Source of the DNA: Bryobacterales bacterium
GTDB lineage: Bacteria; Acidobacteriota; Terriglobia; Bryobacterales; Bryobacteraceae
Reading direction: 5' to 3'
Length of the DNA stretch: 43,653 bases
Assembly (NCBI GenBank): GCA_020852755.1
Contig: JADZAF010000200.1
Coordinates: 1 to 43,653 of the forward strand
A program made the position numbers and the translations under genes. The notes beneath the pieces were generated by a model. It did not search any database, was not told the DNA's origin, and saw nothing but the letters and a program-made list of their open reading frames with translations. This document shows, piece by piece, positions 10,374 to 24,490 of the stretch; position 1 is the stretch's first letter, and each line of letters opens with the position of its first letter.

Positions 10374-10990
10374 TGGAACGGTGTACCGCGCTGCTGCTGG
10401 CATGCGCCTGCCTGCTGCCGGCGGCTCCCAAGGCCTATGAGATCCGTCCGGCGGGCGGCAGCCGTTTCGCTCTCCAGGTCGAGAAGACCGGCTTGATGAG
10501 CGGCAGGAAGCACCTGTTCCTGTTCGAGCGATACCACGGGGCCGTGTTCTACGACGCGGCATCGCCGGAGCACTCGCGGGTGGAACTGACCGTGGAGGCC
10601 GCCAGCGCGGTCTGCCGGGACACCTGGGTCAGCGAGAAGGACCTGAAGAAGATCCAGGAGTACGCGCTCCACGACATGCTGGCCGCGGAGAAGTATCCGG
10701 AGCTGCGGTTCATCTCCACGGGAGTAAAGCGCAAGGATGGGAAGTCGTTCGAAGTGGAGGGCGACTTGACCATACGGGGCATCGCCAGGCCGGTGAACAT
10801 CTCCGTCACGGCGGAAGAAGGCGCGGACGGGCTGGCCGCGGTGTCGGGCAGGGCCATCGTCCGGATGAAAGACTACGGACTCAAGCCTCCGCGGGCGGCG
10901 CTGGGAACCATCGGGACGAAGAACGAGATGACGGTCGAGTTCCGCCTGCCGCTGGCGGGCCGGATGAATCTGACGGAGGTGAGGCCATGA
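10373..10990 (+). CDS. YceI-like exported protein
   Basis: A 205-aa protein with a signal peptide (hydrophobic stretch with two Cys, [13 protein letters not shown]) and the lipocalin-like YceI fold: [20 protein letters not shown] at the start, [20 protein letters not shown], and [14 protein letters not shown]. YceI proteins are periplasmic and bind isoprenoid-like lipids such as polyprenyl derivatives. Its stop overlaps the next gene (ATGA at 10987-10990). Coupling to an outer-membrane barrel upstream suggests an envelope role. Its connection with the glycosidase downstream is unexplained. Confidence 0.85.
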
Positions 10991-13599
10991 CGCGAGAGGA
11001 AGAGCGCCTTCGGGAAGCGCGCGAGCGCACGGCGCACTGGAAGCGGTGGGGACCCTACCTGAGCGAGCGCGCCTGGGGGACGGTGCGGGAGGACTATAGC
11101 GCGGAGGGCGTTGCCTGGGACTACCTGCCTCACGACCACGCCCGTTCCCGGGCCTATCGCTGGAACGAAGACGGGCTGGCCGGCATCTCGGACCGGCACG
11201 GGCTCATCTGCTTCGCCGTCGCCCTGTGGAACGGCCGCGATCCGATCCTGAAGGAGCGGCTGTTCGGGCTTACGGGCAACGAGGGGAATCACGGCGAGGA
11301 CGTCAAGGAGCAGTACTTCTACCTGGACAGCACGCCGACGCACTCCTACATGAAGTGCCTGTACAAGTACCCGCAAGCCGCCTTTCCGTACACCCTGCTG
11401 GTGGAGGAAAACCGCCGGCGCGGCAAGCACAGTCCGGAATACGAACTGGCCGACACCGGCGTGTTCCACGAAAACCGCTACTTCGACGTGTTCGTCGAGT
11501 ACGCCAAGGGCACGCCCGAGGACATCCGGATCCGGATCACGGCGGTGAACCGAGGCCCGGAGGCGGCTGTCCTGCACCTGCTGCCGACGGTGTGGTTCCG
11601 CAACACCTGGTCGTGGGGCAGGGACGATGGAAGGCCGGCCATGCGGCAGCCCTGCGACTGCGCCATCGAACTGGATCATCCCCGCTACGGAATCCGCCGG
11701 CTGTTCATGGAGGGATCGCCGGAGACGCTGTTCACCGAAAACGAGACCAACTACCGGCGCCTGCACGGCGGAGAGAACGGCTGCGCCAAGGACGGGATCA
11801 ATGATTACATCGTGCACGGGCGCCGGGAAGCGGTGAATCCACAGCGCGCGGGGACCAAGGCCGCGGCGCATTACGTGCTCAACCTGGGCGCCGGCGAAAG
11901 CGCGACCGTACGGTTGCGATTGACCGACGCAGCCTCGAATGACGAGGAATTCGATCGCATTTTCGCCGACCGGCAGCGGGAAGCCGACGAATTCTACGCC
12001 ACGGTGATTCCCCAACATCTCTCCGGGGACGCGAAGCACGTGATGCGGCAGGCGCTGGCCGGCCTGCTGTGGTCCAAGCAGTTCTACCATTACGTAATCG
12101 ACGAATGGCTGAAGGGTGATCCGGCCTTCCCGCCGCCTCCGCCGGAGCGGCTGCGGAGCCGCAACCACGAGTGGCCGCACCTCCACAATGCCGACGTCCT
12201 CTCCATGCCGGACAAGTGGGAGTATCCCTGGTACGCGGCCTGGGACCTGGCGTTTCACTGCGTGCCGCTGGCGCTGGTGGATTCCGACTTCGCCAAGGAG
12301 CAGCTCATCCTGATGCTGCGCGAGTGGTACATGCACCCGAACGGCCAGCTGCCGGCGTACGAGTGGGCGTTCGGAGACGTGAACCCTCCGGTGCATGCCT
12401 GGGCCGCCTGGCGGGTTTACAAGATCGAGAAGAAGCGGCGCGGGGTGGGCGACCGGGCTTTTCTGGCGCGGGTCTTCCAGAAGCTGCTGCTCAACTTCAC
12501 CTGGTGGGTCAACCGCAAGGACGCCGAGGGCCGCAACGTGTTCCAGGGAGGTTTCCTGGGCCTGGACAACATCGGCGTGTTCGACCGCAGCAAGCCTCTG
12601 CCGACCGGCGGGCACATCGAGCAGGCGGACGGCACCGGCTGGATGGCCATGTACTGCCTCAACCTGCTGGCCATCGCGTTGGAACTGGCGCGGGAGGACC
12701 CGGCCTACGAGGACCTGGCCAGCAAATTCTGGGAGCATTTTCTCTATATCGCCGACGCCATCAACCACCTGGGCGAGGATGGCGCGGGCATGTGGAACGA
12801 GCAGGACGGTTTCTTCTACGACGTGCTGCACATACCCGGCGGCGGCCGCCTGCCCTTGCGGGTTCGTTCCATGGTGGGGCTGATTCCGCTGTTCGCGGTG
12901 GAAACGCTGGAGCCGGACATCGTGGACCGGCTGCCCGGCTTCAAGCGGCGTCTGGAATGGTTCATCGACCACCGCCGCGACCTGACCCGCAATGTCGCCT
13001 GCATGCGGGTCCCGGGAGAAAGCGAGCGGCGGCTGCTCTCGATCGTGGACCCCGGCCAGTTGCGGCGCGTTCTGGCTACGCTGCTGGACGAGCGCGAGTT
13101 TCTCTCACCCTTCGGCATCCGGTCGCTTTCGGCCATCCACCGCGAACAACCCTACGTGCTGGCGGTGAACGGGTCGGAACACCGGGTGGCCTATGAGCCC
13201 GCCGAATCCACCACCGGGCTGTTCGGCGGGAATTCGAATTGGCGGGGGCCGGTGTGGTTTCCGGTCAACTACCTGATCATCGAATCGCTGCAGAAGTTCC
13301 ACCACTACCTGGGCGACGACTTTCGGGTGGAGTGTCCCTCGGGCTCGGGCCGCATGATGAGCCTGTGGGAGGTGGCGGCGGAGCTTTCGCACCGGCTGAC
13401 ACACATCTTCCTGATGGGGCCGGACGGACGCCGGCCGGTACACGGCTCGAATGAACTGTTCCGCGGCGACCCGCACTGGCGCGACCTGGTGCTGTTCTAC
13501 GAGTACTTCCACGGCGACGACGGGTCGGGCCTGGGCGCCGGCCATCAGACCGGGTGGACGGGCCTGGTGGCCAAACTGATGCAGCAGAGCGGAGAGTGA
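10987..13599 (+). CDS. Large glycosidase, GH63/MGH1-like (alpha/alpha toroid)
   Basis: An 870-aa protein of the bacterial glucosidase family related to GH63 (mannosyl-oligosaccharide glucosidase), with an MGH1-like catalytic barrel. Recognisable stretches are [19 protein letters not shown] in the N-terminal beta part, and in the toroid [58 protein letters not shown] and [14 protein letters not shown]. The acidic residues in the W-x(n)-D/E segments are the likely catalytic acid and base by family analogy. Family members remove terminal glucose or act on glucosylglycerate-type substrates. There is no signal peptide, so it is probably cytoplasmic, although the two coupled genes before it encode exported proteins. 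It starts inside the YceI stop (ATGA). Length is normal for the family. Confidence 0.85.
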
Positions 13600-13662: not shown

Positions 13663-13691
13663 TTGAATGGGGACCGGAGAATCGATAATAA
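13663..13691 (+). promoter_or_regulatory. Candidate promoter for msrPQ
   Basis: TTGAAT (13663-13668) and TAATAA (13686-13691) are separated by 17 bp; an alternative -10 is GATAAT at 13684-13689. Transcription would begin near 13697, immediately before or within the ribosome site GGAGGGG (13697-13703), so the leader would be very short. The rest of the 108-bp gap after the glycosidase shows nothing recognisable. Confidence 0.35.
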
Positions 13692-13707
13692 GGGAAGGAG
13701 GGGCAAA

Positions 13708-14631
13708 GTGCTGATCCGCAAGCCTGCCGGGATTCGTTACTCGGAGATCACTCCGCCCGGCGTGTACTGGAGCCGGCGGCGGTTTCTCGCGGTGGCGCCG
13801 GCGTCTCTGATTTTGGCCGGCCAGGCGCAGGCCGGAGCGAAGCTGAACGGGGTGATCCAGAGCCCGTTCAGCACCAGCGAGAAGCAAACGCCTTACAAGG
13901 ACGTCACGAGTTACAACAACTTTTATGAGTTCGGCACGGGCAAGGAGCAGCCGGCGGAACTCGCCAGGAACCTCAAGACAGTACCCTGGACGATCTCGGT
14001 GGAAGGGGCTGTCGCCAAGCCCAAGGTCTTCGATCTGGACGCGGTGATGAAGATGGCTCCGCTCGAAGAGCGCATCTACCGCCTGCGCTGCGTGGAGGGC
14101 TGGTCCATGGTGGTGCCGTGGATCGGCTTTCCGTTGAACGCGCTGATCCGGCAGGTGGAGCCGCTGTCCAAAGCGAAATTCGTCGCGTTCCAGAGCCTGC
14201 ACGACACCAGGCAGATGCCGGCGGCGAAGTGGGCGGGCATTCCGCTGCCTTACGTGGAAGGGCTGCGCATGGACGAGGCCCTGCATCCGCTGGCGATTCT
14301 GTGCGTGGGCTTGTACGGCGAGGTGCTTCCGAACCAGAACGGCGCGCCCGTCCGCCTGGTAGTGCCCTGGAAGTATGGGTTCAAGAGCATCAAATCGATT
14401 GTGAAGATCCGCTTCGTGGAGAAGCAGCCGCCCACCACCTGGAATCTCTCCAACGCGCGCGAGTACGGATTCTACTCGAATGTGAATCCGGAGGTGGACC
14501 ATCCGCGCTGGAGCCAGGCCAGCGAGCGGCGGCTGGGCGAGTTCTTCAAGCGCAAGACGCTGCTGTTCAACGGCTACGGAGACCAGGTGGCGCAACTCTA
14601 CGCCGGCATGGACCTGCGGAAGCATTACTGA
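13708..14631 (+). CDS. msrP: Protein-methionine-sulfoxide reductase catalytic subunit MsrP
   Basis: A 307-aa periplasmic molybdoenzyme of the sulfite-oxidase fold that reduces methionine sulfoxide in proteins. It has a Tat signal (SRRRFLAV, residues 22-29) and the MsrP N-terminus with the SEITP element. Cys128 ([14 protein letters not shown]) is the expected molybdenum ligand. The family core SLHDTRQMP and [16 protein letters not shown] are present. The start is GTG 13708, which has GGAGGGG 4 nt upstream and fits the family N-terminus ([14 protein letters not shown]); an in-frame codon at 13663 is open but fits neither. msrQ begins one base after its stop. The pair repairs oxidatively damaged envelope proteins, which links this locus to the sigma factors beside it. 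Confidence 0.95.
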
Positions 14632-14632
14632 C

Positions 14633-15280
14633 ATGCGCTGGATCAAGTCCCTGGTCTTTCTGGCCTGCCTGTCTCCGGCCGCGTGGCTGGTATGGAAGGG
14701 GCTGCGGCAGGACCTGGGCGCCAACCCGATCGAGTTCATCACCCACGCCACCGGTGACTGGACCCTGCGGCTCCTGGCGGTGACCCTGGCCGTCACGCCG
14801 CTGCGGAAGCTTTCCGGCCTGCACCCGCTGATCCGCTTGCGGCGCATGCTGGGGCTGTTTGCTTTCTTCTACGGCTGCCTGCATTTCCTGACCTACCTCT
14901 GGCTGGACAAGTTCTTCGATATGCCGGAGATCGTGAAGGACATCGGCAAGAGGCCGTTCATCACCGCCGGCTTCATCGCTTTCGTCCTGCTGGCGCCGCT
15001 GGCCGTCACGTCCACGAAGGGCTGGATCCGGCGATTGGGCGGGCGGCGGTGGCAGCGGCTGCACCGGCTGATTTACGTAAGCGCAATCGCCGGCGTGGTG
15101 CATTACTACTGGCTGGTGAAATCCGACATACGGAGTCCGCTGGCTTACGCGGCGGTCATCTTCCTGCTGCTGGGATTCCGCGCCGCGGTCTGGTGGCGCG
15201 GCAATGCAGGCACCGCCAGGGCACGGACCGGCCGGGTAGTTGCCGCGGCCGCTCAAGGCGCGGGCAGCGATCCGGAGTGA
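14633..15280 (+). CDS. msrQ: Haem-binding membrane subunit MsrQ
   Basis: A 215-aa inner-membrane b-haem protein of the ferric-reductase-like family. It passes electrons from the respiratory chain to MsrP. Several hydrophobic helices are visible. Likely haem-ligand histidines lie in GCLHFLTYLWLDKF, RLHRLIYVSAIAGVVHYYW and nearby. The ATG is one base beyond the msrP stop, the standard msrPQ arrangement. The last 28 bp overlap, tail to tail, the 3' end of the ECF sigma gene on the opposite strand (15253-15822). The C-terminal Ala/Arg-rich tail is longer than needed for the fold. Confidence 0.93.
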   Translation: MRWIKSLVFLACLSPAAWLVWKGLRQDLGANPIEFITHATGDWTLRLLAVTLAVTPLRKLSGLHPLIRLRRMLGLFAFFYGCLHFLTYLWLDKFFDMPEIVKDIGKRPFITAGFIAFVLLAPLAVTSTKGWIRRLGGRRWQRLHRLIYVSAIAGVVHYYWLVKSDIRSPLAYAAVIFLLLGFRAAVWWRGNAGTARARTGRVVAAAAQGAGSDPE

Positions 15281-15822
15281 CTGCCGGCGGCCTGGGAGCC
15301 CGCTGCGCGGATGCCGGCCGTGACCGCGCAGGCCGCCAGCCGGGCGCGCAGCAGCTGGCGGCCCCGGCTCAGGCGGGACATCACGGTGCCGATGGGGATC
15401 TCGAGCGTCTCCTGGATTTCCCTGTAGGAGAACTCCTGCACGTCGGCCAGCAGCACCACCTCGACAAACTGTCTCGGAATGCTTCGCAGCGCCGCGAGGA
15501 TCTCCTCGTCGGTCAGGTGCTCCGGCACGGTCGTTGGCGACGATAAGGCGCCTTCCAGTACGGCAGGCTCCTGGAAGACCAAGCGGCTGAGCCATTTTCG
15601 CCGGTGGTGGGAGATCACGTGGAACAGGATCCGGAACAGCCAGGCGCGGCAGTTGGTGCCGGGGGTGAAGCGATGGAAAGATTTCCAGGCTTGCAGATAC
15701 GTCTCCTGGACCACATCCTCGGCGTCGGAGCGATGGCCGAGGATGCAGGCGGCGGTCCGCTGCAGATCCTTCAGGTGAGGGAGAGCCACGGCTTCGAAAC
15801 TGTCCAGGTCCCCAGGCTGCAT
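15253..15822 (-). CDS. ECF sigma factor without an adjacent anti-sigma gene
   Basis: A 189-aa ECF sigma factor. Region 2 is DAEDVVQETYLQAWKSFHRF plus CRAWLFRILFHVISHHRRKW. Region 4 is ALRSIPRQFVEVVLLADVQE with helix-turn-helix IPIGTVMSRLSRGRQLL. The region 2 core is nearly the same as in the sigma factor at 5487-6095, so the two are paralogues. ATG 15822 gives the family length; the frame stays open upstream through sequence antisense to the fused sigma gene. No anti-sigma gene follows, because the stop lies inside msrQ on the other strand. A 132-bp spacer separates its start from the divergent fused gene. Convergence on msrQ and similarity to a regulated pair suggest an oxidative-stress role; this is inference. 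Confidence 0.9.
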   Translation of the reverse strand: MQPGDLDSFEAVALPHLKDLQRTAACILGHRSDAEDVVQETYLQAWKSFHRFTPGTNCRAWLFRILFHVISHHRRKWLSRLVFQEPAVLEGALSSPTTVPEHLTDEEILAALRSIPRQFVEVVLLADVQEFSYREIQETLEIPIGTVMSRLSRGRQLLRARLAACAVTAGIRAAGSQAAGSHSGSLPAP

Positions 15823-15883
15823 GGCTGGCTCGAAAACTGAATCTGTAGACGGCTTCCCGTGTCGAACGATGCAGAATTCACAG

Positions 15884-15920
15884 TCCCGGCATTGAAGCCC
15901 GGGAACGGCCCGGCTAGAAT
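15884..15920 (+). promoter_or_regulatory. Sigma-70 type promoter with overlapping inverted repeat
   Basis: TTGAAG (15892-15897) and TAGAAT (15915-15920) are 17 bp apart, a good housekeeping-type promoter for the fused sigma gene. The start point would be near 15927, which favours the ATG at 15955 over one at 15859. The inverted repeat TCCCGG (15884-15889) / CCGGGA (15899-15904) brackets the -35 and could be an operator. The GGGAAC within it also resembles an ECF -35 (GGAAC), but no matching ECF -10 was convincing. Confidence 0.5.
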
Positions 15921-15954
15921 CGAACCATTCCCCTTGGATTCCGCTGGAGGGCGG

Positions 15955-17727
15955 ATGAGCTATTTCGCCGAGGTCGGGCTGGGAACGGCTTTTGCGCCCT
16001 ACCGGGCCCTGGAGGCGCGCTACCGCCTTCTGCCGGGGATCTTCCGCGCGCAGAGCCTGCTGCCCCGGGCGATTGAAGCCGAGGCCGGGCTCGTCCTTGC
16101 CGTGCTTGGAGAAGCCGGTGTGCTTCCCCGGATTGCGCGCGAAGAGATCGTGCTGGCGGTTGCCGCGGCGTGCGGCGAGCCCTACTGGGTGGCGCTGGAA
16201 TGGCACGTGCTCCGCGGCTTGGGGGTGGCGGAGAGCGAACTGGAGCGTTTCACCGCCGGGCGGCATACCGGCATCGCCGCGCCCAGGGAATCGGCGCTGA
16301 TCGACTTCGCGTTGAAGCTGGCCTGCCGTCCGGACTGTGTGGGGAAAGCGGATATCGATTCCCTTCGCGGGTACGGCTGGGAGGATCCGGAAATCCTGGA
16401 GGCGGCAGTGACCACCGCCCTCGCGCGGGCGCTGTGCCTGCTGGCGGGCGGCACGGGAGTCCAGCCGGATGGCGAGCCGAAGCCCATCCCGGCGCGCCCG
16501 CCTTACTTCCCGGCAGAAGGGCCGGTGGTGGGCGAGGAGCCTCCCGGTCCCTACCTGGTCCTGCCGCCCGGGCGGCCGCCTGCGTTGGACTACTTCCAGG
16601 AAACCTTCGGCCTGGTGCCTAACCTGATTGCCGCCCAGGCGGGCCGCACCGACCTGTTGGACGCCCAGACCGGACTGATCAAGGCGGTGCTGGTTCCCGG
16701 CGATATCCTGTCGCGCTTGCAGAAGGAGTGCATCTTCATCGCCGTGGCAGCGGCCAACCTGAGCACCTATTGCGTGGCCGCGCACTGCCAGATCCTGCGA
16801 GGTTTGGGCGTGCCGCCGGCCGATGCGGACCAGATCGCGGTCAACCACCGGCTGGCGCCGTTGAGCGAGGCGGACAAGGGTCTGCTGGACTTCACGCTGG
16901 CGCTTCTGCGCCGGCCGCGCGGCACCGGCGCCGGGGAGATCGCGAGATTGCGCGATCTCGGTTTCAGCCCGGCTCAGATTCTGGAAGCGGTGGCCATGAC
17001 GGCTCTGACCACCTTCTTCAATACGCTGTCCCTGGCCCTCGGCGAGGCGCCCGATTTCCCGCCGCCGCGCGTTTTCAGGCCGCAGGAAGTGCATCGGTTC
17101 CCCTTGGCGGCGCGTCCCGTGATCGAGGCCGGCATGCCGCGGCCGGCCGATCCCGACGCGGAACTGGTGGCCCGGGTGCAGACAGGCGAAACGGACGCAT
17201 TCGAAGAACTGGTGCGGCGCCATACAAGGCGCATCTATCGCACCCTGGTGGGTGTCCTCGGCGATGCCGACGAAGCCCGGGACGCCATGCAGGAGACCTT
17301 TCTCAAGGCCTACCAGAACATAGGCGGTTTCCAGGGGCGTTCGAAGTTCATCACCTGGCTGATCAGCATTGCCACCCACGCGGGGATCGAGCGCCTGCGC
17401 GAGCGGCGGCCGGCCGAGAGTCTGGATGAGACCGGCGAGGACCGCCTGCTCACGGTGCAGGCGCGGACCTGGAGGGACAACCCCGAGGAAGCGTACTCGA
17501 GGGGAGAGATACGGGCGATCGTGGAACGGGGAGTGATGCGGCTGCCGACTCCGTACCGCCTGGCGGTCATGCTGCGGGATATTGAGCAGCTTTCCAACGA
17601 GGAGGCAGCCGCGGCTCTGAATCTCAGCGTTCCGGGATTCAAGGCCCGGGTTTTCCGCGGCCGCTGCCTGCTGCGCGAGACGCTCGCGCCGCACTTCACC
17701 CGGCGCGAGAAGGGGGCAGGGAGATGA
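15955..17727 (+). CDS. AhpD/CMD-like double domain fused to an ECF sigma factor
   Basis: A 590-aa single ORF. Residues about 1-180 and 200-380 are two copies of the helical AhpD/carboxymuconolactone-decarboxylase fold. Compare AAACGEPYWVALEWHVLRGLG (about 71-91) with AANLSTYCVAAHCQILRGLG. Residues about 400-590 are an ECF sigma factor: LVARVQTGETDAFEELVRRH, DAMQETFLKAYQNIGGF, then region 4 LPTPYRLAVMLRDIEQLS with a helix-turn-helix. The family's C-x2-C-x3-H redox centre is altered: copy 2 has S270-T-Y-C273-x3-H277-C278, and copy 1 has only C73 with W78 at the second Cys position. ATG 15955 has GGAGG 4 nt upstream and lies below a good promoter; ATG 15859 would lie above the start point. An internal GAGG/ATG at 17134 could make sigma alone. 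A zinc anti-sigma gene overlaps the stop. A thiol-sensing sigma factor is inferred. Confidence 0.88.
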   Translation: MSYFAEVGLGTAFAPYRALEARYRLLPGIFRAQSLLPRAIEAEAGLVLAVLGEAGVLPRIAREEIVLAVAAACGEPYWVALEWHVLRGLGVAESELERFTAGRHTGIAAPRESALIDFALKLACRPDCVGKADIDSLRGYGWEDPEILEAAVTTALARALCLLAGGTGVQPDGEPKPIPARPPYFPAEGPVVGEEPPGPYLVLPPGRPPALDYFQETFGLVPNLIAAQAGRTDLLDAQTGLIKAVLVPGDILSRLQKECIFIAVAAANLSTYCVAAHCQILRGLGVPPADADQIAVNHRLAPLSEADKGLLDFTLALLRRPRGTGAGEIARLRDLGFSPAQILEAVAMTALTTFFNTLSLALGEAPDFPPPRVFRPQEVHRFPLAARPVIEAGMPRPADPDAELVARVQTGETDAFEELVRRHTRRIYRTLVGVLGDADEARDAMQETFLKAYQNIGGFQGRSKFITWLISIATHAGIERLRERRPAESLDETGEDRLLTVQARTWRDNPEEAYSRGEIRAIVERGVMRLPTPYRLAVMLRDIEQLSNEEAAAALNLSVPGFKARVFRGRCLLRETLAPHFTRREKGAGR

Positions 17728-17957
17728 TCAGCTGCGAGCGGTTCATGGCGGAACTGGGCGAGTATCTGGAGGGCGATGCGGCCGCGGGGATCCGCCGGCA
17801 ACTCGAGGAGCACCTCTCGCACTGCCGCACCTGCTGGGTCACTTACGACTCAGTGCGCAAGACGCTTCGCATCGTCACCGACAGCGCGTGCTTCGATGTG
17901 AGCGAAGCACTATCCGAGTCGATTGTCGAGAGGGTGATGGCCCGGGTACGTCCGTGA
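17724..17957 (+). CDS. Soluble zinc-binding anti-sigma factor (ZAS type)
   Basis: A 77-aa protein carrying the complete zinc anti-sigma motif: C4, then 25 residues, then H30-x3-C34-x2-C37. There is no transmembrane helix, so it is cytoplasmic, like RsrA, in which oxidation of the zinc cysteines releases the sigma factor. A further Cys lies near residue 55 (SACF). The start overlaps the stop of the fused AhpD-sigma gene (ATGA, 17724-17727), so the two are made together and it is the likely partner of that sigma domain. About 180 bp with no recognised element separate it from the TPR gene. Confidence 0.85.
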   Translation: MISCERFMAELGEYLEGDAAAGIRRQLEEHLSHCRTCWVTYDSVRKTLRIVTDSACFDVSEALSESIVERVMARVRP

Positions 17958-18140: not shown

Positions 18141-19220
18141 ATGAGACTCCAAACGGCGAAACAGATCGCGTGCAGCGCCTGTTGCCTGGCCGGGCTGGCC
18201 GCGCTGCACGCGGAGAGCGTGCCGCAATCGGAGATGGCCCGGGCGGCGGTGGCGCAGCAGCAGGGGAAATACCGGGAGGCGGAGGGATGCTACCGGCAGG
18301 CGGTGGCGCGGGTCGAGGCGGCGTCGGGACCGGAAGCCGCGGGCCTGATCGCGCCGCTCAGCGAACTCGGCCGGCTGTATCTCCGGCTGGGCAGTCCCGC
18401 GCGGGCGGAAGAACTTCACCGCAGGGCTCTGCGTATCGGCGAGCGAACGCTCGGGCCGCGCGACGCGCAGGTGGCCGCGCTCCTGAACAACCTGGGCGGC
18501 GCCTGTTACTACCGGGCCAAGTACGCAGAGGCCGAATCGCTGTACCTGCGGTCTCTGGCCATCCAGGAAGACATCCAGGCGGACGCTCCGAGCACGGCCA
18601 GCGTGCTGAACAATCTGGCGGCGCTGTATCATTCCACGGGCAGGTTCGCCGACGCGGAGATGCGCTACCGGAAAGCGCTGGAGTCGTTCGAGCGCCGGCT
18701 GGGACCGGAGAACCCGGAGGTTGCCGTGGTGCTGAACAACCTGGCCGGGCTCTACGTCCGCCGGAGCCGCTTCCTCAAGGCCGAGCCGCTGCTGCGCAGG
18801 TCCCTGGCGATCCACGAGAAAGCCTGGAGGCCGGATCATCCCAATCTCGTGCCGGGCCTCTGCACCCTGGCGGAGTTGTACCGGGACCTGGAGTATTACG
18901 AGAAAGCCGGGCCTCTCTTTGAACGGGCGCTCGCGATTCTGAGCCGCACAGTGGGTCTGGACCATCCCGAGGCGGCGCGCGCCGTGCACGGTCTGGCCGA
19001 CATCCATGCCCGCCAGGGCGACCTTGCAAAGGCGGAGGGCCTGCTGCTCCGCTCGCTGCGGACCTGGGAGAAGACTCTGGGAGCGCGGCACCCCAACGTG
19101 GCGGTGACGCTGCAGGATCTCGGCAGGCTGGCCCTGGTTCAAAAACGGCGTCACAAGGCGCAGGCGTTCCTCGAGCGCGCGACCGCGGCCGGGCAGGGAC
19201 TTCTGGAACAGGGGAGGTAG
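18141..19220 (+). CDS. Exported TPR-repeat protein (kinesin-light-chain type)
   Basis: A 359-aa protein with an N-terminal hydrophobic segment (IACSACCLAGLAALHA), probably a signal peptide. About seven 42-residue tetratricopeptide repeats follow, with the TPR_12/kinesin light chain pattern (HPNVAVTL.DLG.L, ALLNNLGGACYYRAKYAEAE, SVLNNLAALYHSTGRFADAE, VVLNNLAGLYVRRSRFLKAE). Such repeats form a superhelical protein-binding surface; the partner is unknown. The stop is 4 bp before the ECF sigma gene, so the two are probably co-transcribed. No clear ribosome site precedes ATG 18141. If the signal peptide is real, the protein acts outside the cytoplasm and could be an envelope sensor or target for the sigma factor beside it (inference). 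Confidence 0.85.
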   Translation: MRLQTAKQIACSACCLAGLAALHAESVPQSEMARAAVAQQQGKYREAEGCYRQAVARVEAASGPEAAGLIAPLSELGRLYLRLGSPARAEELHRRALRIGERTLGPRDAQVAALLNNLGGACYYRAKYAEAESLYLRSLAIQEDIQADAPSTASVLNNLAALYHSTGRFADAEMRYRKALESFERRLGPENPEVAVVLNNLAGLYVRRSRFLKAEPLLRRSLAIHEKAWRPDHPNLVPGLCTLAELYRDLEYYEKAGPLFERALAILSRTVGLDHPEAARAVHGLADIHARQGDLAKAEGLLLRSLRTWEKTLGARHPNVAVTLQDLGRLALVQKRRHKAQAFLERATAAGQGLLEQGR

Positions 19221-19224
19221 CGCC

Positions 19225-19878
19225 ATGCTGGCCCTGACACTGGAAACGCCGGCGGCATTCGGAAGCCGCAAAGAGACCATGGACGGTGATGCACGGCACG
19301 CCGACGAGGGCTTGCTGGTCCGCCGCATACGGAGCGGCGAGGAGGCTGCTTTTCGGGAACTGGTCGAACGCTACCAGTCGAGAATCTTCCGGGTGGTGTA
19401 CGGGATTCTCCGCAACCGCGAGGATGCAGAGGACCTGGCGCAGGAGGTATTCGCCAAGGTTTACTTCTCCATCCGGGGCTTCGACGGGCGCGGCTCGCTG
19501 TTCGGCTGGGTCTATCGCATCGCGCTCAACGAGTGCTACGGGCGCATGCGCAAGAAGCGGGTTGTCCTGGTCTTCGAAGGCGACGCCCGGAAGGGCGGAC
19601 CGGCCATGGACCTGCGAACGGCCGCCGACAGGCGTCCCGGCCAGGACCATACCGTGGCGGAGAGAGACTTCGTCAACAAGCTGCTGGCCCGGATCCCGGA
19701 TTTCGACCGCGTGCTGCTCCTGGGAAGAGAGGTGCAAGGCTTCTCGGTAAGCGAACTGGCGGAGATGACCGGGCTGAACGAGAACACGGTGAAGGTACGC
19801 CTGCTGCGCGTTCGCCGGAGGCTGGCCCGTCTGGCCGCCTGTTTCTCGCGACCGGCGGCGGCCGGATGCCGCCGCTGA
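19225..19878 (+). CDS. ECF sigma factor
   Basis: A 217-aa ECF sigma factor. Region 2 (AAFRELVERYQSRIFRVVYG, DAEDLAQEVFAKVYFSIRGF) is followed by a linker and region 4 (LLARIPDFDRVLLLGREVQG, helix-turn-helix MTGLNENTVKVRLLRVRRRL). ATG 19225 has GGGGAGG 7 nt upstream. A second in-frame ATG at 19279 begins the more conserved part. It is not closely similar to the paralogous pair at 5.5 and 15.3 kb. The TPR gene is 4 bp upstream and the BON gene 22 bp downstream. No zinc-finger anti-sigma is encoded beside it, so control may be through the TPR protein, by transcription, or by an unlinked factor. Confidence 0.92.
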   Translation: MLALTLETPAAFGSRKETMDGDARHADEGLLVRRIRSGEEAAFRELVERYQSRIFRVVYGILRNREDAEDLAQEVFAKVYFSIRGFDGRGSLFGWVYRIALNECYGRMRKKRVVLVFEGDARKGGPAMDLRTAADRRPGQDHTVAERDFVNKLLARIPDFDRVLLLGREVQGFSVSELAEMTGLNENTVKVRLLRVRRRLARLAACFSRPAAAGCRR

Positions 19879-22253: not shown

Positions 22254-23102
22254 ATGAGGAAACGCAAACTGGCTATCGCATCCATGGCCGTGATCGCCGG
22301 CGGAATCGGGTGGTACCTGTTCCGGCCGGAGCGGCTGTTCATCAATCAGACGGTCAACGAGGGGCTGGCGGTGGCGGCGACCCGTTCCGCGCTGATGCCG
22401 GTCGCCTCCGGCCGCTTCCACGGCGTGGCGCACGAAGGCCGCGGCATGGCGACCATCTTCCAGGCTCCGGACGGAAAGCGCATCCTGCGCTTCACCGGTT
22501 TTGAAACGTCCAACGGGCCGGACGTTCAGGTGTACCTGGTTGCCGCGGCCGACGCCAACGACAACGAGACGGTGACGAAGGCGGGCTTCATTCACCTGGG
22601 AGCGCTGAAGGGCAACCGCGGCGATCAGAACTACGACATCCCCGACGGGGTGGACCTGGACAGGTACCGCGCCGCCACCATCTGGTGCCGCCGCTTCGGC
22701 GTGAACTTCGCCACAGCCCCCCTGGGGGAGCCCGGCAGCATGGCGCCGGAACCGGCTCCGGTCGCGCAAGGGCAGTTCCACGGCGTGGCCCATGAGGCAA
22801 AGGGAACCGCGACCATCTACCAGTTCCCCGGCGGCCGCCGCGTACTGCGCTTCACGCAGTTCGAAACATCGAACGGCCCCGATGTCCAGGTCTACCTGGT
22901 GGCGGCGCCCGATGCCAATGACAACGAGACGGTGACGAAGGCGGGCTTCCTTCACCTGGGAGCGCTGAAGGGCAACCGCGGCGACCAGAACTACGACATC
23001 CCGGCCGATGCCGATTTGAGCAAGTACCGGGCCGCCACTGTCTGGTGCCGCCGCTTCGGGGTGAATTTTGCGACGGCGCCTCTGATGCCGCACCCGCACT
23101 AG
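22254..23102 (+). CDS. Membrane-anchored protein with two DM13 domains
   Basis: A 282-aa protein: one N-terminal transmembrane or signal-anchor helix (residues about 6-23), a short linker, then two DM13 domains at 53-157 and 173-277. Each has the pattern GxFHGVAHE ... VYLVAA.DANDNETVTKAGF ... NYDIP ... YRAAT(I/V)WCRRFGVNFATAPL. The conserved Cys is in WCRRF. DM13 domains are thought to take part in redox or electron-transfer reactions at the cell surface. By eye the two copies are identical at about 87 of 105 residues, so the duplication is recent. GGAGGG precedes the ATG. The NDH-2-like flavoprotein follows after 68 bp, which would suit an electron-transfer role. Confidence 0.88.
   Translation: MRKRKLAIASMAVIAGGIGWYLFRPERLFINQTVNEGLAVAATRSALMPVASGRFHGVAHEGRGMATIFQAPDGKRILRFTGFETSNGPDVQVYLVAAADANDNETVTKAGFIHLGALKGNRGDQNYDIPDGVDLDRYRAATIWCRRFGVNFATAPLGEPGSMAPEPAPVAQGQFHGVAHEAKGTATIYQFPGGRRVLRFTQFETSNGPDVQVYLVAAPDANDNETVTKAGFLHLGALKGNRGDQNYDIPADADLSKYRAATVWCRRFGVNFATAPLMPHPH
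22410..23084 (+). repeat. Internal tandem duplication encoding the two DM13 domains
   Basis: The segments 22410-22724 and 22770-23084 encode the two domains with an offset of 360 bp. Their middle parts (22560-22643 and 22920-23003) differ at only about three bases, while flanking parts differ more. That gradient suggests gene conversion, or constraint on the core. Confidence 0.8.
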
Positions 23103-23170
23103 GCGGCGGCAGGCTTCCGGGCAGGCCCGCGCGGCCTGCCCTCGCGTTTCACTTTGAAGGGAGGCTGGCA

Positions 23171-24490
23171 ATGAACCGGAAGGTCATGATCCTCGGAGGC
23201 GGATTCGGCGGGCTGTACGCGGCCCTGCATCTGGAAAAGATCCTGGCGAAGGATCCGGAAGTGGAAGTGACGCTCGTGAACCGCGAGAACTTCTTCCTGT
23301 TTACGCCCATGCTGCACGAAGTGGCGGCCAGCGATCTGGATCTGACCACCATCGTCAACCCGGTTCGCAAGCTGCTCCGCCGAGTGAACTTCTTCGCCGG
23401 CGAAGTGGAGGGCATCGACCTGCCCGGGCGCCGCATCGTGGTTTCGCACGGTTTCGATCATCACCATCACGAGATGGAGTACGACCACCTGGTGCTGGCC
23501 CTGGGATCCATCACGAACTTCTACAACCTGCCGGGGCTGGCGGAGCGCGCCCTCACCATGAAATCCCTGGGCGACGCGATCGCATTGCGCAACCGCCTGA
23601 TTGCGCATCTGGAGGAGGCGGACACTGAGTGCGCGGCCCGCCTGCGCGAGCCGCTGCTGACGTTCGTGGTGGCCGGCGGCGGCTTCGCGGGAGTGGAAAC
23701 CATCGCCGGCATGAATGACTTTCTCCGCGTGGCCCTGCGGTTCTATCCGCACCTGAAGGAAGACATGCTCCGGGTGGTGCTGGTGCATCCCGGGCCCACC
23801 ATCCTGCCCGAACTAGGGGAGAAGCTCGGTTCGTACGCGCAAAGGAAACTGGCGGAGCGCAAGGTCGAGATCCGGGTGAACACCAAGGTCGCCGGGGTTT
23901 CGGAAGACGCCGTGGCGCTGAGCGACGGCAGCGTGATCCGGGCCGGGACGCTGGTCTGGACGGCCGGCACCTCGCCCAATCCGCTGCTCGCAACCCTGCC
24001 TTGCGTGAAGGAGCGGGGACGGCTGGTAGTAAACGAATACCTGGAGGTGCCGGACTGGCCCGGGGTGTGGGCGCTGGGGGATTGCGCCCGGGTGCCCGAC
24101 CGCGGAACCGGCATGGCCTGTCCGCCCACGGCCCAGCACGCGTTGCGCGAAGGCCGGACGGTAGCGCACAACATTACCGCCGCCATCCGCGGGGGGACGC
24201 CGAAGCCCTTCGCGTTTCAGACTCTCGGGCAACTGGCGGCCATCGGCCGGCGCACCGGTGTGGCCAACATCCTGGGCGTGAACTTTTCAGGCTTCGCCGC
24301 CTGGTGGTTGTGGAGAACCATCTATCTGAGCAAGCTGCCCCGGTTCGACAAGAAGCTGAGAGTGGCGCTCGACTGGACGCTCGACCTGCTGTTCTCCAAG
24401 GACCTGGTCCAGTTCATGACCTTCCGCGCCCCGGCGGCGTCGCACGCCGGGGAGGAGGCGCGGGGGACGCCGGTGGGCAGCGGGCGCTGA
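23171..24490 (+). CDS. NDH-2-like FAD/NAD-dependent oxidoreductase
   Basis: A 439-aa flavoprotein of the type II NADH dehydrogenase family. The FAD motif is ILGGGFGGLYAALHL (8-22). The NAD motif is FVVAGGGFAGVETIAGM (about 170-186). The C-terminal FAD contact is VWALGDCARV, followed by PPTAQHALREGRTVAHNI. The last 70 residues (FSGFAAWWLWRTIYLSKLPRFDKKLRVALDW) are amphipathic and probably hold the enzyme at the membrane. It would oxidise NADH and reduce quinone without pumping protons. ATG 23171 follows GGGAGG. A His-rich loop (FDHHHHEMEYDH) near residue 97 is unusual and could bind metal. Confidence 0.9.
   Translation: MNRKVMILGGGFGGLYAALHLEKILAKDPEVEVTLVNRENFFLFTPMLHEVAASDLDLTTIVNPVRKLLRRVNFFAGEVEGIDLPGRRIVVSHGFDHHHHEMEYDHLVLALGSITNFYNLPGLAERALTMKSLGDAIALRNRLIAHLEEADTECAARLREPLLTFVVAGGGFAGVETIAGMNDFLRVALRFYPHLKEDMLRVVLVHPGPTILPELGEKLGSYAQRKLAERKVEIRVNTKVAGVSEDAVALSDGSVIRAGTLVWTAGTSPNPLLATLPCVKERGRLVVNEYLEVPDWPGVWALGDCARVPDRGTGMACPPTAQHALREGRTVAHNITAAIRGGTPKPFAFQTLGQLAAIGRRTGVANILGVNFSGFAAWWLWRTIYLSKLPRFDKKLRVALDWTLDLLFSKDLVQFMTFRAPAASHAGEEARGTPVGSGR

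Follow-up and report, generated by a model that had tools for sequence, protein, structure and literature searches.

Many extracytoplasmic function (ECF) sigma factors are controlled by membrane anti-sigma factors or by soluble zinc proteins, and in RsrA, the partner of SigR, the zinc ligands are spaced C-x25-H-x3-C-x2-C. Reviews of fused ECFs list, in their available text, SnoaL-like, YCII-related, zinc-finger or membrane extensions (PMC8999054; PMC7730460), and the available text on ECF41 describes a fused regulatory domain and CMD, oxidoreductase or epimerase neighbours (PMC3426412). Considered here is a 43,653-nucleotide stretch of DNA (the window) from a Bryobacterales bacterium (GCA_020852755.1, contig JADZAF010000200.1, positions 1 to 43,653; the genome comprises 7.4 Mb in 398 contigs), in which one gene encodes two AhpD-type carboxymuconolactone decarboxylase (CMD) domains and an ECF sigma factor in a single chain, followed by a gene for a predicted zinc anti-sigma factor (ZAS).

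The locus resembles ECF41 in that a regulatory domain is fused to the ECF, CMD proteins lie nearby and there is apparently one dedicated neighbouring target promoter. In contrast to the C-terminal extension of ECF41, the extension here is N-terminal and itself consists of two CMD domains; the available text reports no obvious anti-sigma gene for ECF41, whereas here a ZAS gene directly follows the sigma gene in 22/22 loci; and CMD proteins linked to ECF41 have CxxC, whereas the free CMD proteins of this family have SxxC (11/11) and the fused second domain N/S-xxC (PMC3426412). A literature search that did not extend to the 2021 ECF re-classification (10.1093/nar/gkaa1229), in which a group number may already exist, turned up no account of such a protein; a CMD-CMD-ECF fusion with a ZAS is apparently undescribed.

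The fused protein, its family and its zinc partner

The reading frame is free of stops from 15859 to 17727 (+), 622 aa in all and 590 aa counted from the methionine at 15955; because GGAGG lies just 5' of this ATG and several homologues start at the equivalent methionine, the protein is taken as the 590-aa product of 15955-17727. It comprises CMD1 (residues 14-167; 15994-16455, +), with an AhpD fold, placed by homologue alignment and predicted fold; CMD2 (residues 209-362; 16579-17040, +), of TIGR01926 type, placed by NCBIfam match, homologue alignment and predicted fold; and sigma regions 2 (residues 402-483; 17158-17403, +) and 4 (residues 516-581; 17500-17697, +), both placed by Pfam and predicted fold. 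The Pfam matches are CMD, Sigma70_r2 and Sigma70_r4_2, with no region 3 among them, and CMD1 has no match in Pfam. TIGR01926 ('peroxidase-related enzyme') matches two stretches, the better at 245-398 of the 622-aa frame; against its cut-off of 81.8 bits the protein scores 138.1 and CMD2 by itself 93.4. The sigma part, which matches SigW and SigE structures and has regions 2 and 4 without region 3, is an ECF sigma factor, and Sigma70_r2 and Sigma70_r4_2 are found in 71/71 family members scanned. The stop-free, one-chain arrangement described in an earlier reading of the DNA alone (the sequence-only reading) is thus borne out by the open frame, the Pfam and TIGR01926 matches and the predicted fold.

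The same reading had suggested a database search for the CMD-CMD-sigma architecture, which proves recurrent. A full-length protein search, with 7991 proteins scored, gave 709 at E<=1e-3; all of the best 120, which are the homologues listed, contain CMD and sigma regions 2 and 4, cover 90-96% of the query and, besides the window's own copy, are 44-67% identical to it. With over a hundred related fused proteins, the one-chain arrangement is real as judged from their sequences. A sequencing error or chimera joining two genes is rejected, since the fusion occurs in 120/120 listed homologues and its loci come from many assemblies. Occurrence is scattered: the full-length fusion is found in 2/61 relatives and in at least 3/396 genomes of the phylum, a lower bound because three candidates were scored per genome. 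Among plasmids, none of 653 records with a match covers 80% of CMD2-sigma. The 22 distinct fused loci (the window, L001; L002, which carries the same set of open reading frames (ORFs) as L036 and is counted with it; L031-L035; L037-L050; and L207) are labelled Acidobacteriota apart from L048, an incomplete locus cut by the end of a 3.9-kb contig labelled Methylomirabilota. In the sigma tree the 22 fused sigma factors, three split rows (two of them identical) and the unfused L003 and L122 form one clade (100/99), with the fused sigma factors on one side of a weakly supported branch (38/85; midpoint roots). In the CMD tree CMD1 is a clade (100/99), free CMDs are a clade (100/100) and CMD2 is without resolved placement.

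The ZAS gene (17724-17957, +) overlaps the end of the sigma gene by ATGA, as the sequence-only reading had noted, and its 77-aa product passes the zf-HC2 cut-off (26.9 against 22.2 bits) and has no hydrophobic segment, in keeping with the soluble zinc-site partner claimed there. The label 'RsrA-like' stands for the ligand spacing, C4-x25-H30-x3-C34-x2-C37, and fails for the score, which at 34.1 bits is under the equivalog cut-off of RsrA (TIGR03988, 62.5). The pair is therefore like SigR-RsrA and other ECF-ZAS pairs in that the sigma gene overlaps a gene for a small soluble C-x25-H-x3-C-x2-C protein; it differs in missing that cut-off and in the additional N-terminal half of the sigma factor (about 390 residues). 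A small ORF with H-x3-C-x2-C lies directly 3' of the sigma gene in 22/22 loci (21 fused and the split L051), and overlaps it in 21/22, the start codon of L034 being ambiguous; the fuller motif C-x24-27-H-x3-C-x2-C is present in all 22 and also in L207. The 77-aa protein is likely, from its position and motif, to be the anti-sigma factor of the fused sigma factor. Unfused sigma relatives have a ZAS-type neighbour in 28/28 loci (L003-L030), so that the ECF-ZAS pair appears to be the older state and the CMD part a later gain. Additional ECF-ZAS pairs lie close to the fused operons in L033, L037 and L207. At L041:9667-11859 the ZAS ORF continues into a PAS-GAF-sigma54 activator, with zf-HC2 and Sigma54_activat in one 730-aa ORF, which suggests that ZAS and downstream activator are functionally coupled there.

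Fold and active sites of the CMD pair

Both CMD domains are visible in the predicted fold, each as an AhpD fold, and the tandem pair as modelled matches human Sestrin2 (PDB 5dj4, 5cuf, 5t0n); the model has the AhpD domains in the sestrin arrangement. The structure-search listings (Foldseek, VIA) leave room for families not shown in them. At the level of sequence, sestrin is not among the matches of a search of solved structures at 1e-3, and the link to Sestrin2, a leucine sensor of tandem AhpD domains, consists of a single weak match to the sestrin family PA26 (E 8e-4) in 1/71 members, which is not the window protein. The output differs as well, GATOR2 for Sestrin2 and a sigma factor here. A DDYDY hinge motif, which according to the available text of PMC11429811 replaces the C-domain active site in sestrins, is absent from the translation of the window protein. 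Bacterial tandem AhpD proteins (YciW and others) are also fused AhpD-like dimers, some with one cysteine-less domain, and have been likened to sestrins; that paper names no sigma fusion in its available text, and 'sigma' is absent from its main text (PMC11429811). TIGR01926 enzymes (PDB 2prr, 3c1l, 2pfx, 6k40) share the fold of each CMD domain, and the family cut-off is passed, but they lack the joining of two domains in one chain with a sigma factor, and 2prr, 3c1l and 2pfx, as aligned, have the CxxC that is absent here; solved relatives read, for example, NQCLYCVVAH.

In CMD1 of the window protein, Glu and Trp78 occupy the two CxxC cysteine positions (the second is Cys in 103/120 listed homologues), E82 stands in place of a His present in 97/120, Y77 is retained, and C73 lies near the motif yet at neither CxxC position. 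CMD2 has E258, S270, Y272, C273, H277 and C278. Its first CxxC position is Asn in 116 and Ser in 4 of the 120, the window having Ser (S270), and the consensus is mostly N-L-N-T-Y-C-V-A-x-H-C; the other residues are conserved in 120 (E258), 120 (Y272), 110 (C273), 117 (H277) and 105 (C278) of the 120. On these residues CMD1 is more degenerate than CMD2. With CxxC gone from both domains, the disulfide chemistry of AhpD is excluded for the window protein, and the AhpD-type redox pair of the sequence-only reading is not supported as stated; single-cysteine chemistry, or a switch, at C273 of CMD2 is possible. Sestrin2 mirrors this: according to the available text of PMC4674687, it retains the first Cys together with the Tyr and His, the second Cys position is Leu, and the protein works as an alkylhydroperoxide reductase with one cysteine, whereas fused CMD2 keeps the second Cys.

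A separate CMD gene lies near 11/22 fused loci, downstream in L002, L047, L050 and L033 (where the row is fused ECF-ZAS, second ECF-ZAS, free CMD) and divergent in L038, L040, L041, L044, L045, L046 and L049; there is none near the window's fused gene. The free CMD active site is SxxC in 11/11, and all 11 read NLSTYCVTAHCE. At 1e-40 the free-CMD profile matches 4/396 genomes (G188, G213, G229 and the window's genome). The first three have a free copy together with a fused or split ECF; the window's genome matches through its own fused domain only, weaker TIGR01926 matches aside. In G229 and G188 the operon is split, an unfused sigma factor being followed by ZAS and then CMD, and the CMDs of these operons differ from the free CMDs at the active site (NLNSYCVSAHSE, NLSSYCVARHSE); in G213 the free CMD is unlinked. 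For the unfused sigma factors of the same clade, L003 and L122, the 12 kb and 5 kb examined, respectively, contain no CMD gene. The occurrence of the same parts both fused and unfused argues for a functional link of CMD with this ECF-ZAS pair.

The active-site Cys of fused CMD2 is retained in 10/10 fused loci without a nearby free CMD and in 5/11 with one (Fisher p 0.012, uncorrected for relatedness; L207 was scored from the same gene in L120, its own misframed row giving 0.063, and the partial L048 was omitted). The equivalent of C273 is absent from the other 6/11, and is thus not required in every member. Fused CMD2 without this Cys is maintained in L041, L045, L046, L047 and L049; by the author's count there were at least three separate losses, and four of the six loss loci belong to one clade. 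At L050:7992-9566 fused CMD2 lacks the central active-site segment, and the adjoining free CMD gene has an intact motif.

Promoter-like motif and neighbouring genes

An element GACGG-N15-GATGC, with slight variation, is common to eight upstream regions, where it was spotted by eye, and scanning located it 3' of the ZAS gene in six more loci. On the opposite strand it reads TTCTGCATC-YTT-N12-CCGTC-nnA, preceded by a short A/T-rich stretch; AAC/CGT is given as the ECF promoter signature in the available text of PMC3426412, and the -10 element here includes CGT, with AAC not present. All 14 copies point away from the start of the fused gene or onward past ZAS, and autoregulation of the fused gene through the motif was dropped on that ground. 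In the window the motif reads leftward at 15844-15881 (-), with -35 TGCATC (15873-15868), N15 and -10 CCGTC (15852-15848), and ends 25 nt before the ATG of ECF2 (15253-15822, -), a divergent second ECF sigma factor of 189 aa (best NCBIfam match SigH_actino, under cut-off) and the predicted target. The sequence-only reading had pointed to this second ECF gene as connected, and the conserved motif strengthens that link.

In 12/14 motif loci an ORF of 100 aa or more begins 11-141 nt past the -10 element. This ORF is ECF2 in the window and likewise an ECF gene in L044, L045, L049 and L050. In L038, L040 and L046 it encodes a sigma54 activator, in L042 NDH2, in L032 an alpha/beta hydrolase and in L047 an S8 protease-like protein (labelled by eye), and in L031 it is a DM13 gene with another DM13 gene and NDH2 behind it; another regulator is thus the predicted target in 8/12 cases. 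If the motif serves as a promoter, its output would seem to be a single dedicated neighbouring gene. Leave-one-out scores are 12.4-42.8 bits over the 14 loci, and with the window site excluded from the matrix no other position on either strand of the window scores as high as that site (12.4 bits; next 7.7). Weak candidates occur in L033 and L034. The classic ECF promoter G[AG]AAC-N14-20-CGT has one match only (L039) in 20 upstream regions. Allowing one mismatch, GACGG-N15-GATGCA gives 230 matches across the window's genome against 261 in the control, so that no wider regulon is seen in that genome. The short eight-base pattern gives 40 matches over all loci examined (several copies of one site among them) against 16-30 in five shuffles; the positions carry weight, the total does not. 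The strict 29-base pattern occurs 17 times in 14 genomes and 5 times in the control; among the 17, 12 are source sites and the 5 elsewhere are at control level (5 vs 5), and the window and L047 operons are unmatched.

Neighbouring genes were compared between 23 fused or split loci (L031-L051, L206, L207) and 57 control ECF loci, the latter mostly from other genera. DM13 genes are near 7/23 loci and 0/57 controls (Fisher 8e-5), and NDH2 genes near 5/23 and 0/57 (Fisher 1.4e-3). The window's own pair (22254-24490), located 4.3 kb beyond ZAS, consists of a double DM13 'electron transfer' protein (22254-23102, +) and a type II NADH dehydrogenase-like flavoprotein (Pyr_redox_2 and NDH2_C; 23168-24490, +), the nearest other gene to which in its own genome is 33% identical at most (1e-40). 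MsrP and MsrQ (methionine sulfoxide reductase; 13663-15280, +) are both over NCBIfam cut-offs and had been taken as a functional hint; the hint is weak, with MsrP near 2/23 fused or split operons (66% identical in L036, 34% in L047) and MsrQ, like the TPR gene, OsmC and O-methyltransferase, near 0/23, so DM13 and NDH2 are the better supported neighbours. An ADH gene recurs in 2/23 loci and a GH63-like gene in 3/23: an 870-aa MGH1-like/GH63-like glycoside hydrolase (10987-13599, +) is 73-77% identical to proteins encoded close to the fused operon in L045, L047 and L049. A third ECF sigma gene (19225-19878, +) lies less than 2 kb from the fused one, 4 nt past the TPR-protein gene (18141-19220).

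Possible mechanism and its meaning

The fusion and its recurrence, the ZAS gene, the loss of CxxC, the linkage to free CMD genes, the split operons and the promoter-like element are read from the DNA and its translations; how they work together can be proposed. The chances are about even that a sestrin-like CMD sensor module gates an ECF-ZAS pair that has one dedicated target promoter. ZAS would bind and hold the fused sigma factor until the CMD pair sensed a small molecule or hydroperoxide, most likely in the CMD2 pocket (E258, Y272, C273, H277), and the sigma-ZAS contact would be gated by ligand, as leucine acts at the C-terminal domain of Sestrin2, or by one-cysteine oxidation. The released sigma factor would then switch on one neighbouring gene, in the window ECF2, through the putative promoter, and ECF2 might activate targets of its own, possibly the DM13-NDH2 electron-transfer genes; this relay is conjecture. 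A more specific form, in which the protein is a bacterial sestrin wired into transcription, its CMD pseudo-dimer sensing an amino acid, an aromatic compound or an organic hydroperoxide in the CMD2 pocket and so controlling whether ZAS holds the attached sigma factor, is tentative and somewhat doubtful.

Several findings weigh against the gating proposal. With a predicted template modelling score (pTM) of 0.64 and a disordered linker (372-395) between the CMD pair and sigma, no confident CMD-sigma or CMD-ZAS contact is predicted, and a sestrin-like arrangement, which may follow from fusion of any AhpD-type homodimer, is by itself no proof of sensing. ECF-ZAS pairs without a CMD gene occur in 28/28 unfused relatives (L003-L030; stretches of 2.5-3.7 kb), so control by ZAS need not involve the CMD part. 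The window's motif copy is the weakest of the 14 and fails the strict pattern, and since scores of 11-17 bits are also reached at a few sites outside the operons (17.1 at L047:14046, for instance), it convinces by position and not by score; 8/22 fused loci are without a strong motif (L048 being outside the test), and predicted targets vary between lineages. The neighbour test is confounded by lineage, most controls being Granulicella/Edaphobacter relatives.

Direct redox switching, in which a hydroperoxide oxidises C273, perhaps together with C278 or a zinc cysteine of ZAS, and so releases sigma, comes near to the idea of the sequence-only reading. It would suit the frequency of both cysteines among the listed homologues (110/120 and 105/120), the proton-relay Glu, Tyr and His of CMD2, the one-cysteine reductase activity in the available account of Sestrin2 (PMC4674687) and the presence of MsrP, MsrQ, OsmC, DM13 and NDH2 genes in the window; it is nevertheless unlikely, given that CxxC is missing from both domains, that window CMD1 has no Cys at either of its positions and that, of the 11 fused loci close to a free CMD gene, 6 have the Cys replaced or deleted. 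The ZAS residues that are conserved, four in number, moreover look like zinc ligands, and the extra C56 of the window ZAS is common, among 21 listed, to L038 and L040 only. Those same cysteine counts, 10/10 retained without a free CMD against 5/11 with one (the Fisher p of 0.012 being uncorrected for relatedness), fit a fusion without sensing, in which CMD is an operon enzyme joined to sigma for co-expression and ZAS alone senses, as do the split ECF-ZAS-CMD operons and the ECF-ZAS pairs with no adjacent CMD gene. This is quite improbable: CMD1 is degenerate yet retained, the homologue alignments spanning 90-96% of the query; a motif-bearing free CMD near 11/22 loci would make the fused copies there redundant; and Cys-less CMD2 persists in five of these loci (L041, L045, L046, L047, L049).

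AhpD-type proteins form oligomers, and a free CMD could accordingly dock on the fused CMD domains, the sigma factor reading the amount of free or substrate-loaded enzyme. Such partner exchange would account for the free CMD genes near 11/22 fused loci, for the fused or split ECF in all 3 of 396 genomes with a free copy, and for the loss of the fused active-site Cys only where a free CMD is nearby; there is no free CMD near the fused gene of the window, and at 1e-40 the free-CMD profile matches nothing in that genome besides its own fused domain, so that exchange cannot be the rule for all members and is very improbable as the explanation. Of the interpretation first drawn from the sequence, then, the single chain with its zinc partner, which recurs in relatives, and the connection to ECF2 stand; the AhpD redox pair is unsupported as stated, and the msrPQ hint is weak.

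If the sestrin-like gating proposal is true, sensor and sigma factor would share one chain, an intracellular counterpart of Sestrin2-GATOR2, and a single dedicated promoter would start an ECF-to-ECF or ECF-to-sigma54 relay. A tandem AhpD module placed before a sigma factor that keeps its ZAS gene would give that factor a second input, and the dedicated promoter would make the system directly testable in vitro. The available text of PMC11429811, in discussing where sestrins came from, asks how AhpD-fold enzymes become metabolite sensors, and this family would offer a tractable bacterial system for that question; the arrangement would couple a metabolite or peroxide directly to transcription in bacteria.
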